Part shown: positions 38,141 to 54,056 of the stretch, one piece after another
Layout of the letters: each line of letters opens with the position of its first letter
Numbering within the stretch: the first letter of the stretch is position 1
Source: Aequorivita iocasae
GTDB taxonomy: Bacteria > Bacteroidota > Bacteroidia > Flavobacteriales > Flavobacteriaceae
Direction: 5' to 3'
Length of the DNA stretch: 64,000 nt
Assembly: GCF_016757735.1 (NCBI RefSeq)
Contig: NZ_CP068439.1
Span: 1,922,001-1,986,000, forward strand
Notes under the pieces: generated by a model
Databases searched by the model: none
What the model saw: the letters and a program-made list of their open reading frames with translations, nothing else
Told to the model about the DNA's origin: nothing
Made by a program: the position numbers and the translations under genes

Positions 38141-38539
38141 TGGTGGAGCCGGAGGGATTCGAACCCTCGTCCAAACGCGCAACCATATTGCTTTCTACAT
38201 GCTTAGTTTTCGTTTTGATTTTCGAGAGATTGCCGGTTGAAAACTACCAACGCACTCCTTAGCTCCATTTAAGTTTCGCAATCGCATCAGAGCCCTGCGA
38301 TTGCTAGGTTTACTTTCACGAAGCCGCTAAATCGAACGCCGTAAACCAAGGCCTTCGAGCGACTTCCTGCTTGCCCACCTTGTGGGCCGAGGCATACCGT
38401 ACTATAATTCGGGTTATGCAGCTAGGGCGTAGTTATTCTCGCCGTTTAAAAAGTGTGAAATATGATATTAACGAGCTATATCCCAGCGCTCGGCATGCTT
38501 ACAATACAATTAGACCCGCTGTCAAAACCAGTCGGCCCC
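38141..38539 (-). ncRNA. ssrA: Transfer-messenger RNA (tmRNA)
   Basis: A 399-nt RNA on the minus strand. The 5' end GGGGCCG (38539-38533) pairs with CGGCTCC before the encoded ACCA at 38141; the T-arm GGGTTCGAATCCC lies next to the 3' end. The tag frame reads from 38443 (GGC) to TAA at 38414-38416, giving GENNYALAA, a typical Bacteroidota tag. tmRNA with SmpB rescues stalled ribosomes and marks the unfinished protein for proteolysis. The 64-residue plus-strand ORF within it is not a gene. A TATCTTTG on the minus strand at 38619-38626 is the probable promoter. Confidence 0.97.
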
Positions 38540-51794: not shown

Positions 51795-52094
51795 TTATGT
51801 TTTCGGTTTTTGAATCAATTTCTCAAGAGCATCAATATGCTTTTTAAATTCCGCCTTTCCCAGCTTTGTGGCTATGTAATTTGTATTTGGCTTTCTTCCC
51901 ACAAAACTTTTTTCCACCAAAATATATTCTGCCTGCTCCAGTGCTTTTATGTGGCTGGCCAGATTGCCATCGGTAACATCAAGCAATTCCTTAAGCCTAT
52001 TGAAATCTGCATCCTCGTTCACTACAAGTATGCTCATGATTCCCAAGCGGATGCGATGGTCAAAAAGTTTGTTTATGTTGTCTATGATGCCCAC
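51795..52094 (-). CDS. Winged-helix transcriptional regulator
   Basis: A 99-residue DNA-binding protein of the HTH_34 (PF13601-like) type: FDHRIRLGIMSILVVN, FNRLKELLDVTDGNLASHIKALE and a wing FVGRKPNTNYIATKLGK. Such one-domain regulators are usually autoregulatory dimers. It starts 2 nt after a membrane-protein gene. A palindrome shared by its own operon and the downstream Coq4-like/creD operon suggests it controls both. Confidence 0.9.
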   Translation of the reverse strand: MGIIDNINKLFDHRIRLGIMSILVVNEDADFNRLKELLDVTDGNLASHIKALEQAEYILVEKSFVGRKPNTNYIATKLGKAEFKKHIDALEKLIQKPKT

Positions 52095-52096
52095 TT

Positions 52097-52705
52097 TTAG
52101 CTTTTTCTTTCTTTAATATACATTATACTTCCATAAATAATATGGAAAAGCCCGAAGCCCAAGAGCCAAAACCATAGGCCATAACCGGGAAGAGCCGCAC
52201 AAAGTAAGCCGATGATAATTTCTGCATAGCCCAAATATTTTACGTTGCCGATGGTGTATTTTGAGGCATTTACAAGCGCCAGTCCATAAAATATAAGCAT
52301 TAACGAAGCACTTAAACCATAATGCTGACTATTCAATTTGATGATGATGTAAATTCCACCCGTTACAAGTGGGATTAGAAAATTTATGAGTAAACGACGG
52401 GTGGTGGCATCCCAAATTTTCTCATTGTTTTTTTTTGCTTTTTGGGTCGTCAACAGATAAGCTGTGACTACGCTGAGAATTGCCACGGAAGCCAGGAGCG
52501 CGAGCAAGAGTTTAAAATTCCAACTGTGGAGGGTAAGAAATTCCCCCGGTTTTGGGAAAAGATATATGTATGCTATTGCCGCTCCAAGAATAGCATAGAC
52601 TCCAGCAAAGATACCGGAGAGCCCGCTCAGCGATATAAAACGGGAAGAGCGGTTCATTAAGTTTTTAATCTCGCTTATGTCTTTTAGATAATCCTGATCA
52701 CTCAT
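52097..52705 (-). CDS. Putative membrane protein of the CreD locus
   Basis: A 202-residue protein with about six transmembrane helices and a short polar N-terminus (MSDQDYLKDISEIKNLMNRSS). FISLSGLSGIFAGVYAILGAA and YAEIIIGLLCAALPGYGLWFWLLGF (two helices) are characteristic of a flavobacterial family that accompanies the same winged-helix regulator. It may sense the signal. First gene of the regulator operon. Confidence 0.82.
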   Translation of the reverse strand: MSDQDYLKDISEIKNLMNRSSRFISLSGLSGIFAGVYAILGAAIAYIYLFPKPGEFLTLHSWNFKLLLALLASVAILSVVTAYLLTTQKAKKNNEKIWDATTRRLLINFLIPLVTGGIYIIIKLNSQHYGLSASLMLIFYGLALVNASKYTIGNVKYLGYAEIIIGLLCAALPGYGLWFWLLGFGLFHIIYGSIMYIKERKS

Positions 52706-52731: not shown

Positions 52732-52826
52732 AATATAAAAATGTTTGTTAGCCAAATAAAATTCTGAAATATATAGAGCAGTTTTATGGTAATTAAATTA
52801 AGTAGGAGAAACCTTACGTTAAAAAA

Positions 52827-52893
52827 GGGGGAAATCCCCCTACAAATTCAGGGTTTTTCCTCTTGACTGGTATTGTTCTTCTTCGCATCTTTA
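52827..52893 (+). promoter_or_regulatory. Regulated promoter of small RNA unit A
   Basis: Dyad 1 GGGGG-AAAT-CCCCC (52827-52840, centre 52833.5); dyad 2 AGG-N6-CCT (52850-52861, centre 52855.5); -33 TTGA (52863-52866); 20-nt spacer after TTG; -7 region CATCTTTA (52886-52893). The arrangement is repeated at 52995-53062 with identical spacings. Confidence 0.6.
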
Positions 52894-52899
52894 CACTAT

Positions 52900-52973
52900 C
52901 AAATTAATTGGGGAGTTAATTTTAGATATGAGGGCAGAAGCTGTTTCTTTTCAGAAGCAGCTTTTCTTTTTTT
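52900..52973 (+). ncRNA. Candidate small RNA A
   Basis: Predicted ~74-nt transcript beginning about 7 nt after the -7 region. It contains AATTGGGGAGTT (52906-52917), then ATGAGG (52928-52933) opening a 15-codon mini-ORF (MRAEAVSFQKQLFFF), and ends in a hairpin with arms AGAAGCTG / CAGCTTTTCT and a T-run to 52973. No ORF of normal size is present. It may be a regulatory RNA or a leader peptide transcript; start and end are predictions. Confidence 0.5.
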
Positions 52974-52994
52974 AATCTGGACTTAATGATAAAA

Positions 52995-53062
52995 ACAGGA
53001 AAAATCCTGTGTAAAAAGGGGGAAATCCCTGTTGATTGTTAGCAGATTTAGTGCGATATTTG
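52995..53062 (+). promoter_or_regulatory. Regulated promoter of small RNA unit B
   Basis: Dyad 1 ACAGGA-AAAA-TCCTGT (52995-53010, centre 53002.5); dyad 2 GGGGGAAATCCCTG (53018-53031, centre 53024.5); -33 TTGA (53032-53035); 20-nt spacer; -7 GATATTTG (53055-53062). Spacings equal those of unit A. Confidence 0.6.
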
Positions 53063-53068
53063 AATACT

Positions 53069-53137
53069 TATTTAATTGGGGAGTTTTATAAGTAATGAGG
53101 TTAAGGACTGTGCCCCAATTGGGTACAGTCCTTTTTT
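53069..53137 (+). ncRNA. Candidate small RNA B
   Basis: Predicted ~69-nt transcript with AATTGGGGAGTT at 53074-53085, ATGAGG at 53096-53101 opening a 14-codon mini-ORF (MRLRTVPQLGTVLF), and a strong terminator: arms AGGACTGTGCCC and GGGTACAGTCCT around AATT, followed by TTTTTT. Same leader motif and order as RNA A, but the hairpin sequence differs. The gap to unit A's terminator is 21 nt before its first dyad. Confidence 0.55.
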
Positions 53138-53179
53138 AAAAAGTAACGATGCTTATTTTATAGAGTTTTGTTATTAGCC

Positions 53180-53237: not shown

Positions 53238-54056
53238 CTATAATTGATTGATGGTTTTTCTTATAGCTACAAGATCCGTTAATAACTTCTCAAGTAGGTT
53301 TAAATTTAGCATATTGGCACCATCGCTTTTTGCGTTTGTTGGGTCAAAGTGGGTTTCAATAAAAATTCCATCGGCGCCGGTAGCTATTCCCGCTCTCGCA
53401 ATTGTTGAAATCATTTCGGGCCTACCACCTGTAACGCCAGCACTTTGGTTGGGCTGTTGCAAACTGTGGGTAACGTCCAAAACAACGGGGGCGTATTGTT
53501 TCATTGTGGGAATACCCCGAAAATCTACAATCATATCCTGATAGCCGAACATGGTTCCGCGATCTGTAATCAGTACTTGTTCGTTATTGCAATCTGTAAC
53601 CTTGGTTACGGCATGCTTCATGCTTTCCGGGCTCATGAATTGTCCTTTTTTCAAATTCACTACTTTTCCAGTTTCGGCGGCAGCAACCACCAAATCTGTT
53701 TGGCGTACCAAAAAAGCCGGTATCTGTAAAACATCCACGTATTCCGCAGCCATTGTTGCATCACTCACTTCGTGAATATCGGTAACGGTGGGAAGGTCAA
53801 AAGTTTCAGAAACTTTGCGGAGGATTTTCAAAGCTTTTTCATCGCCAATTCCCGTGAAACTATCGATTCTGCTTCGGTTTGCTTTTTTAAAACTTCCTTT
53901 AAAGATGTATGGAATTTCGAGGGCATCTGTAATTTTTACAATCTTTTCGGCAATCTGCATTGCCATTTCTTCGCCTTCAATGGCGCAGGGACCGGCGAGG
54001 AGAAAGAAATTGTTGGAAGTTGTGTGTTTTATTTTTGGGATTAAATTAAGTTTCAT
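53238..54056 (-). CDS. kdsA: 3-deoxy-8-phosphooctulonate synthase KdsA
   Basis: A 272-residue cytosolic aldolase that condenses phosphoenolpyruvate with arabinose-5-phosphate to give KDO-8-phosphate for lipid A/LPS core. Signature blocks: FFLLAGPCAIEGEEM, FKGSFKKANRSRIDSFTG, TDIHEVSDATMAAEYVDVLQ, KKGQFMSPESM, DRGTMFGYQDMIVDFR and THSLQQPNQSAGVTGGRPE. The order and length are those of KdsA rather than AroF-type DAHP synthases. A TATCTTTA -7 element lies at 54076-54083 on the minus strand. Confidence 0.97.
   Translation of the reverse strand: MKLNLIPKIKHTTSNNFFLLAGPCAIEGEEMAMQIAEKIVKITDALEIPYIFKGSFKKANRSRIDSFTGIGDEKALKILRKVSETFDLPTVTDIHEVSDATMAAEYVDVLQIPAFLVRQTDLVVAAAETGKVVNLKKGQFMSPESMKHAVTKVTDCNNEQVLITDRGTMFGYQDMIVDFRGIPTMKQYAPVVLDVTHSLQQPNQSAGVTGGRPEMISTIARAGIATGADGIFIETHFDPTNAKSDGANMLNLNLLEKLLTDLVAIRKTINQL

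Follow-up and report, generated by a model that had tools for sequence, protein, structure and literature searches.

The two intergenic units beside kdsA in Aequorivita iocasae are best read as members of a conserved family of tandemly arranged, predicted small RNAs, which are likely switched on through pairs of promoter dyads and whose G[G/A]GG hairpin loop would pair with AACTCCTCAAT in the leader of the LUD-cdsA messenger, probably blocking its translation. The dyad-pair promoter, the -7 box, the covarying hairpin, the terminator, the kdsA synteny and the complementary, conserved leader site can all be read from the sequence itself. In the window, that is, the whole 64,000-nucleotide stretch of DNA that was analysed, the locus comprises the following features (the extents of both units were checked by script).

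51795..52094, minus strand: HTH_34 winged-helix protein, divergent syntenic neighbour and candidate dyad-binding factor
52097..52705, minus strand: 202-aa membrane protein, divergent syntenic neighbour
52826-52974: unit 1 (whole), intergenic, beside kdsA
52826..52841, unstranded: unit 1 distal dyad AGGGGGAAATCCCCCT, centre 52833.5, from column conservation
52849..52862, unstranded: unit 1 proximal dyad CAGGGTTTTTCCTC, centre 52855.5, from column conservation
52863..52870, plus strand: unit 1 -33/-35 element TTGACTGG, from the promoter column profile
52886..52893, plus strand: unit 1 -7 box CATCTTTA, a TAnnTTTG variant
52898..52974, plus strand: unit 1 predicted B-type small RNA of about 77 nt, with a start deduced from the -7 box
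52906..52917, plus strand: unit 1 loop hairpin AAUU-GGGG-AGUU (seed), box AATTGGGGAGTT, from fold and covariation
52928-52933, plus strand: unit 1 ATGAGG
52936..52974, plus strand: unit 1 intrinsic terminator, arms 52936-52947 and 52953-52965
52996-53139: unit 2 (whole), intergenic, beside kdsA
52996..53009, unstranded: unit 2 distal dyad CAGGAAAAATCCTG, centre 53002.5
53017..53030, unstranded: unit 2 proximal dyad AGGGGGAAATCCCT, centre 53023.5 or, depending on the register, 53024.5
53032..53038, plus strand: unit 2 -33/-35 element TTGATTG, from the promoter column profile
53055..53062, plus strand: unit 2 -7 box GATATTTG
53066..53139, plus strand: unit 2 predicted C-type small RNA of about 74 nt, with a deduced start
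53074..53085, plus strand: unit 2 loop hairpin AAUU-GGGG-AGUU (seed), box AATTGGGGAGTT
53095-53100, plus strand: unit 2 ATGAGG
53103..53138, plus strand: unit 2 terminator, arms 53103-53115 and 53121-53131, with CCCCAAUU complementary to the seed
53238..54056, minus strand: kdsA (DAHP_synth_1), convergent syntenic neighbour

On the divergent side of the intergenic stretch are the genes for the 202-aa membrane protein, the HTH_34 protein, a Coq4-like protein and CreD; the other side is occupied by the convergent kdsA. Re-reading by script recovered the common architecture that the original prediction had described for the two units (dyad pair, TTGA, N20, -7 box, AATTGGGGAGTT, ATGAGG and terminator). 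Its dyad centres at 52833.5, 52855.5 and 53002.5 were also recovered; the fourth, the proximal centre of unit 2 at 53024.5, holds in the GG-N6-CC register of the family but not as the best palindrome, which is centred at 53023.5. Within the window there are exactly two copies of the box AATTGGGGAGTT, and the whole 3.35-Mb genome has three; the one outside the window lies inside a coding sequence and was dropped as a unit. This copy number, together with recurrence at the same locus in relatives and other genera, argues that the units are not a product of chance.

With the two-unit stretch as query, the locus was found in 23 of 27 other genomes of the genus. The family is arranged in tandem, with one to four units per genome; among 28 Aequorivita genomes, 24 yielded units, and other Flavobacteriaceae have them as well. 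The units fall into three types (A, B and C), of which the window contains B and C and several relatives all three; genome G009 has four units. Among the remaining Aequorivita cases, G026 combines the dyad promoter with a GGGGG loop whose stem is rearranged, and G002 gave a weak match only. An exact 18-mer scan of the species-genome collection identified at least 80 loci; the matches listed include 20 in Aequorivita, 35 with units elsewhere and 25 chance matches. Among these listed matches, kdsA or the divergent HTH_34, membrane-protein and creD genes are adjacent in 34 of the 35 non-Aequorivita loci, the exception being L130. A covariance model detected the family in 38 of 299 genomes of the Flavobacteriaceae at E<=0.01, with kdsA or the divergent genes at 23 of 30 model loci (three of the 30 being from Aequorivita). 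In the phylum, 6 of 395 genomes matched: the genome itself, another from its family and four with weak, scattered matches. In Ulvibacter litoralis there are four copies in tandem, of which the last has no clear terminator, and in some genera the leader before the hairpin is longer. When 1000 nt at kdsA were scanned for the dyad-TTG arrangement in 21 genomes from outside the genus without a model match, none was found, with stray G-rich words in some; in G033, the divergent genes and kdsA are present and no unit was found. An Rfam scan gave no family at the gathering threshold except tmRNA, and the permissive matches were below family cut-offs. The tmRNA gene is located at 38141-38539 of the window, on the minus strand, and encodes the tag GENNYALAA.

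For the promoter profile, 54 units were extracted from the 24 genomes and one mis-parsed promoter was dropped, leaving 53 Aequorivita promoters. They contain two GG-N6-CC dyads 22 bp apart, with the proximal G's conserved in 52/53 and the distal G in 48/53, and the centre of the proximal dyad lies 7.5 bp before the TTG. The search pattern required TTG and allowed spacers of N10 to N24, so the invariance of the TTG is built in; the spacer between the TTG and the -7 box is N20 in 40 of the 53 and N21 in the other 13. At least one unit, of type A at L050, escaped the regular expression. Scored with a matrix made from Aequorivita promoters alone, 40 of the 44 units in other genera have a dyad promoter that outscores every one of 60 shuffles, compared with 0 of the 25 chance loci. 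The two groups (35 loci with 44 units, and the 25 chance loci) had been sorted by reading after the 18-mer scan, and the shuffles, like those used below for leader pairing and binding energy, kept single-base composition only. The four units missed are at L127, L158, L162 and L187. The dyad/TTGA/-7 design is thus kept in related genomes, as had been anticipated. For F. psychrophilum, TAnnTTTG has been reported at -12 to -5 (PMC9723704, in extract). Cooperative binding of the dyads by an activator is a plausible candidate reading of the 22-bp spacing, and the HTH_34 neighbour is one candidate for the putative dyad-binding regulator.

The box AATTGGGGAGTT folds as a weak A/U stem, AAUU-GGGG-AGUU, with a near-fixed G[G/A]GG loop and an outer stem extension that differs by type. 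RNAalifold by itself gave the terminator stem only, and the hairpin was named from single-sequence folds. No loop was recognised in one unit each of G025 and G009; with these left out, there are 52 hairpin rows, 47 of them distinct. Of the 52 rows, 50 have the loop GGGG and two GAGG; in addition, there is a unit with GGG and, in G009, a degenerate one. The four inner pairs hold in 47, 46, 47 and 47 of the 47 distinct Aequorivita hairpins, and 462 of 611 cells are paired in register, against 202-292 when the strands are slid by 1-2. Across 49 units from several genera, 86.3% of cells are paired, compared with 76.6% in shuffled and 32-53% in slid versions, and covariation is 0.331 vs 0.174. All five structure measures are higher than in the slid versions, and four are higher than in any of 500 shuffles. 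The fifth, the number of pairs with changes on both sides, is 12 against a shuffle mean of 10.0, and 26 of the 500 reached this value. Since the rows were picked by an exact 18-mer, the invariance of the inner stem in other genera is a selection artefact. The stems covary both within Aequorivita and across genera, and this, with the conserved dyad/TTGA/-7 design, supports the proposal that the units are paired regulatory RNAs with a common promoter design, as far as comparison of sequences can tell. The hairpin at AATTGGGGAGTT, the third unit type in relatives, the conserved synteny and the conserved candidate target leader go beyond that proposal. In their sequence, the units have several features that characterise trans-acting base-pairing small RNAs: they are intergenic, with their own promoter-like region and intrinsic terminator, and lead no gene, because the downstream kdsA is convergent; their secondary structure is conserved; and a complementary, conserved site is located near the start codon of an unlinked messenger.

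This site was found among the loop complements of the genome itself. The sequence ACTCCCCAAT occurs there at 242 places with at most one mismatch, 30 of which were read. None of the six exact complements lies shortly before a sense start codon, and among the 30 places read, four one-mismatch sites lie 19-56 nt ahead of a sense frame (L250, L253, L254 and L257). The site nearest to its start, L254, precedes a LUD-domain gene and was the sole one tested for conservation. The gene order is ftsH, then LUD, then cdsA, with LUD and CdsA identified by Pfam; cdsA starts 1 nt past the LUD stop codon or, with an alternative start further upstream, inside LUD itself. In the window genome, the LUD leader contains AACTCCTCAAT, complementary to the loop, 10-20 nt ahead of the AUG.

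The motif AACTYCTCAA is present in all 27 aligned Aequorivita LUD leaders, as AACTCCTCAA in 24 and AACTTCTCAA in 3; G007 gave no LUD match. Mean column identity is 0.985 at the site, compared with 0.619 before and 0.587 after it, and part of this conservation may come from descent. The C to T change in the three leaders leads to a G-U pair, so pairing is kept. Opposite loop position 2 the target has a U, which pairs both with the usual G of the loops and with the A found there in two rows. With the site, 45 of the 52 hairpin rows pair at 12/12 positions and seven have one mismatch. The predicted binding energy is -16.4 kcal/mol for unit 1 (mean -4.9 and best -16.2 in 100 shuffles) and -14.8 kcal/mol for unit 2 (mean -5.1, best -12.8). 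Loop-leader pairing is stronger than for shuffled leaders (p<=0.05) in 16 of 18 RNA-bearing genomes and in 1 of 12 without the RNA, a contrast with a Fisher p of 1.5e-5 that ignores kinship and is not independent, because the RNA-bearing genomes are closer kin of each other. The exceptions are G091 and G237, with the RNA but no clear pairing, and G168, in which the LUD leader (L378) is strongly complementary to the loop and no RNA was detected. A scan of five genomes with ACTCCYCAA, covering 145 of at least 220 sites (G112 represented by six loci only, G139 in part, and antisense matches to some units included), revealed no second target common to the genomes when start-proximal candidates were compared by eye. 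In individual genomes, AACTCCTCAAT is found shortly before or at the starts of lipoprotein-like or secreted-protein genes, at L380, L482, L497 (G001) and L522 (G139); judging by their sequences, these are possible further, species-specific targets.

It is conceivable, if rather doubtful, that AACTCCTCAAT is kept ahead of LUD for a reason of its own, such as a role in translation initiation or in a local hairpin formed with AUGAGU, and that the RNAs have their targets elsewhere. By eye, ACUC can indeed pair with GAGU at the start codon, and G168 combines strong complementarity with the lack of a detected RNA. However, the spacing between site and AUG varies, G123 and G333 have UUCCUCAAUU directly ahead of the AUG without ACUC, and pairing does not reach p<=0.05 in 11 of the 12 RNA-less genomes. 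A further alternative is that the RNAs are real and that their G-rich loop mainly binds a protein instead of a messenger, in the manner of a CsrB-like decoy. The loop and its closing pairs are near-fixed while the outer stem varies, as in a protein-binding hairpin; multiple tandem copies would fit a decoy, and G026 keeps its GGGGG loop despite the rearranged stem. CsrA sites have a GGA core in hairpin loops, and GGA is present in most of the loops here (GGGGAG), but the G009 loops, GGGGGG and GAGGGG, are without this core. The selectively conserved complementary site in the LUD leader also counts against a decoy, and we consider it unlikely. CsrA is not known from Bacteroidetes.

The original prediction had also offered leader-peptide transcripts, and frames of 15 and 14 codons do run from ATGAGG in the window. 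An ATG in the scanned stretch is, however, not conserved (12/21 B, 8/20 C and 4/12 A units), the peptides differ between species except in close kin, and kdsA downstream is convergent, which makes a leader-peptide or attenuator function very improbable.

We therefore retain base pairing with the LUD leader as the best explanation, for which the following mechanism can be proposed. A putative regulator would bind the pair of 14-bp dyads and induce the RNAs, so that two RNAs of the 75-nt class would be made from units 1 and 2. The loop would open the weak A/U stem and form a duplex of 10-12 bp with the LUD messenger, in which the seed would occlude ribosome entry and LUD would be repressed. Given the position of the cdsA start relative to the end of LUD, cdsA, encoding phosphatidate cytidylyltransferase, would be repressed along with it. 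Membrane-lipid synthesis would then likely be reduced at a key step, the candidate target being at the CDP-diacylglycerol branch point. The neighbours kdsA and creD and the target cdsA suggest a link to envelope homeostasis. The conserved locus and promoter code make regulator, RNA and target directly testable.

In C-type units, an arm of the terminator is complementary to the loop at p<=0.05 against pair-preserving shuffles in 13/19 cases, compared with 0/21 B and 0/11 A units; in other genera, this complementarity is not apparent by eye. The target mimic remains a lead, given that the C units share descent, that part of the stretch lies in a stem and that other genera do not appear to have it. 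Tentatively, and with no great probability, the arrangement might form a self-limiting valve on membrane-lipid synthesis, in which all seeds shut LUD-cdsA, the mimic of the last, C-type unit of Aequorivita (CUCCCCAA and variants) titrates its sisters, and one regulator tunes both brake and release.

Among open-licence papers, the literature search found none describing a kdsA-linked family of twin small RNAs. The closest parallel is with the FopS/GibS RNAs of Bacteroides, which, in the extract of the report considered here, are paralogous multicopy small RNAs, with FopS repressing translation of SusC-like transporters by pairing (PMC11697453). They belong to the same phylum and likewise have a common seed and a terminator; on the same partial source, the FopS seed is a predicted single-stranded 5' stretch, whereas that of the Aequorivita units is a predicted hairpin loop, FopS RNAs are encoded at multiple loci and the units in tandem at one locus, and FopS targets SusC-like genes while the units likely target LUD-cdsA (PMC11697453). 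At 19.4 bits, the match to the Rfam model of GibS fell short of the gathering score of 115 that membership of that family takes. By analogy, the units may work like other base-pairing groups such as FopS, but they are outside the FopS/GibS model and its seed placement. Rfp18 of Flavobacterium psychrophilum, from the same bacterial family, is likewise a conserved structured small RNA, with predicted pairing to metalloprotease messengers via a third stem-loop (PMC9723704, in extract); it was compared by description, not by sequence. The CiaR-controlled Ccn RNAs of Streptococcus pneumoniae, compared by description as well, resemble the units in being several homologous small RNAs under one regulator, in an unrelated phylum (PMC11478796, in extract).

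The dyad motif also marks other promoters of the genus. Such a dyad promoter lies ahead of the gene for a 160-aa orphan protein at L070:1797-2406, L071, L104-L114 and L120 (in the genome itself at about 2237296 and 892453, and in relatives). In a search of 5.8 billion proteins, this family had 38 homologues, the few named ones being from Aequorivita or Flavobacteriaceae. The orphan is followed in 9 of 13 loci read by an HTH-like protein of 105-128 aa and then by variable genes, forming an island-like module. For two orphan/HTH-like pairs, no match was above Pfam cut-offs and NCBIfam and PADLOC gave none; one HTH-like protein matched HTH_26 below the Pfam cut-off. As these proteins vary while the dyads do not, they were not taken as the regulator. 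Dyad arrays at L113, L117, L118 and L123 precede genes of secreted-protein type with short tandem repeats in the early codons, of the CACACGCCC or the CCGCACAAC type; slippage in these repeats could switch the frame. At L072:1774-1813, a dyad pair is located about 340 bp upstream of a curlin-repeat gene (PF07012).
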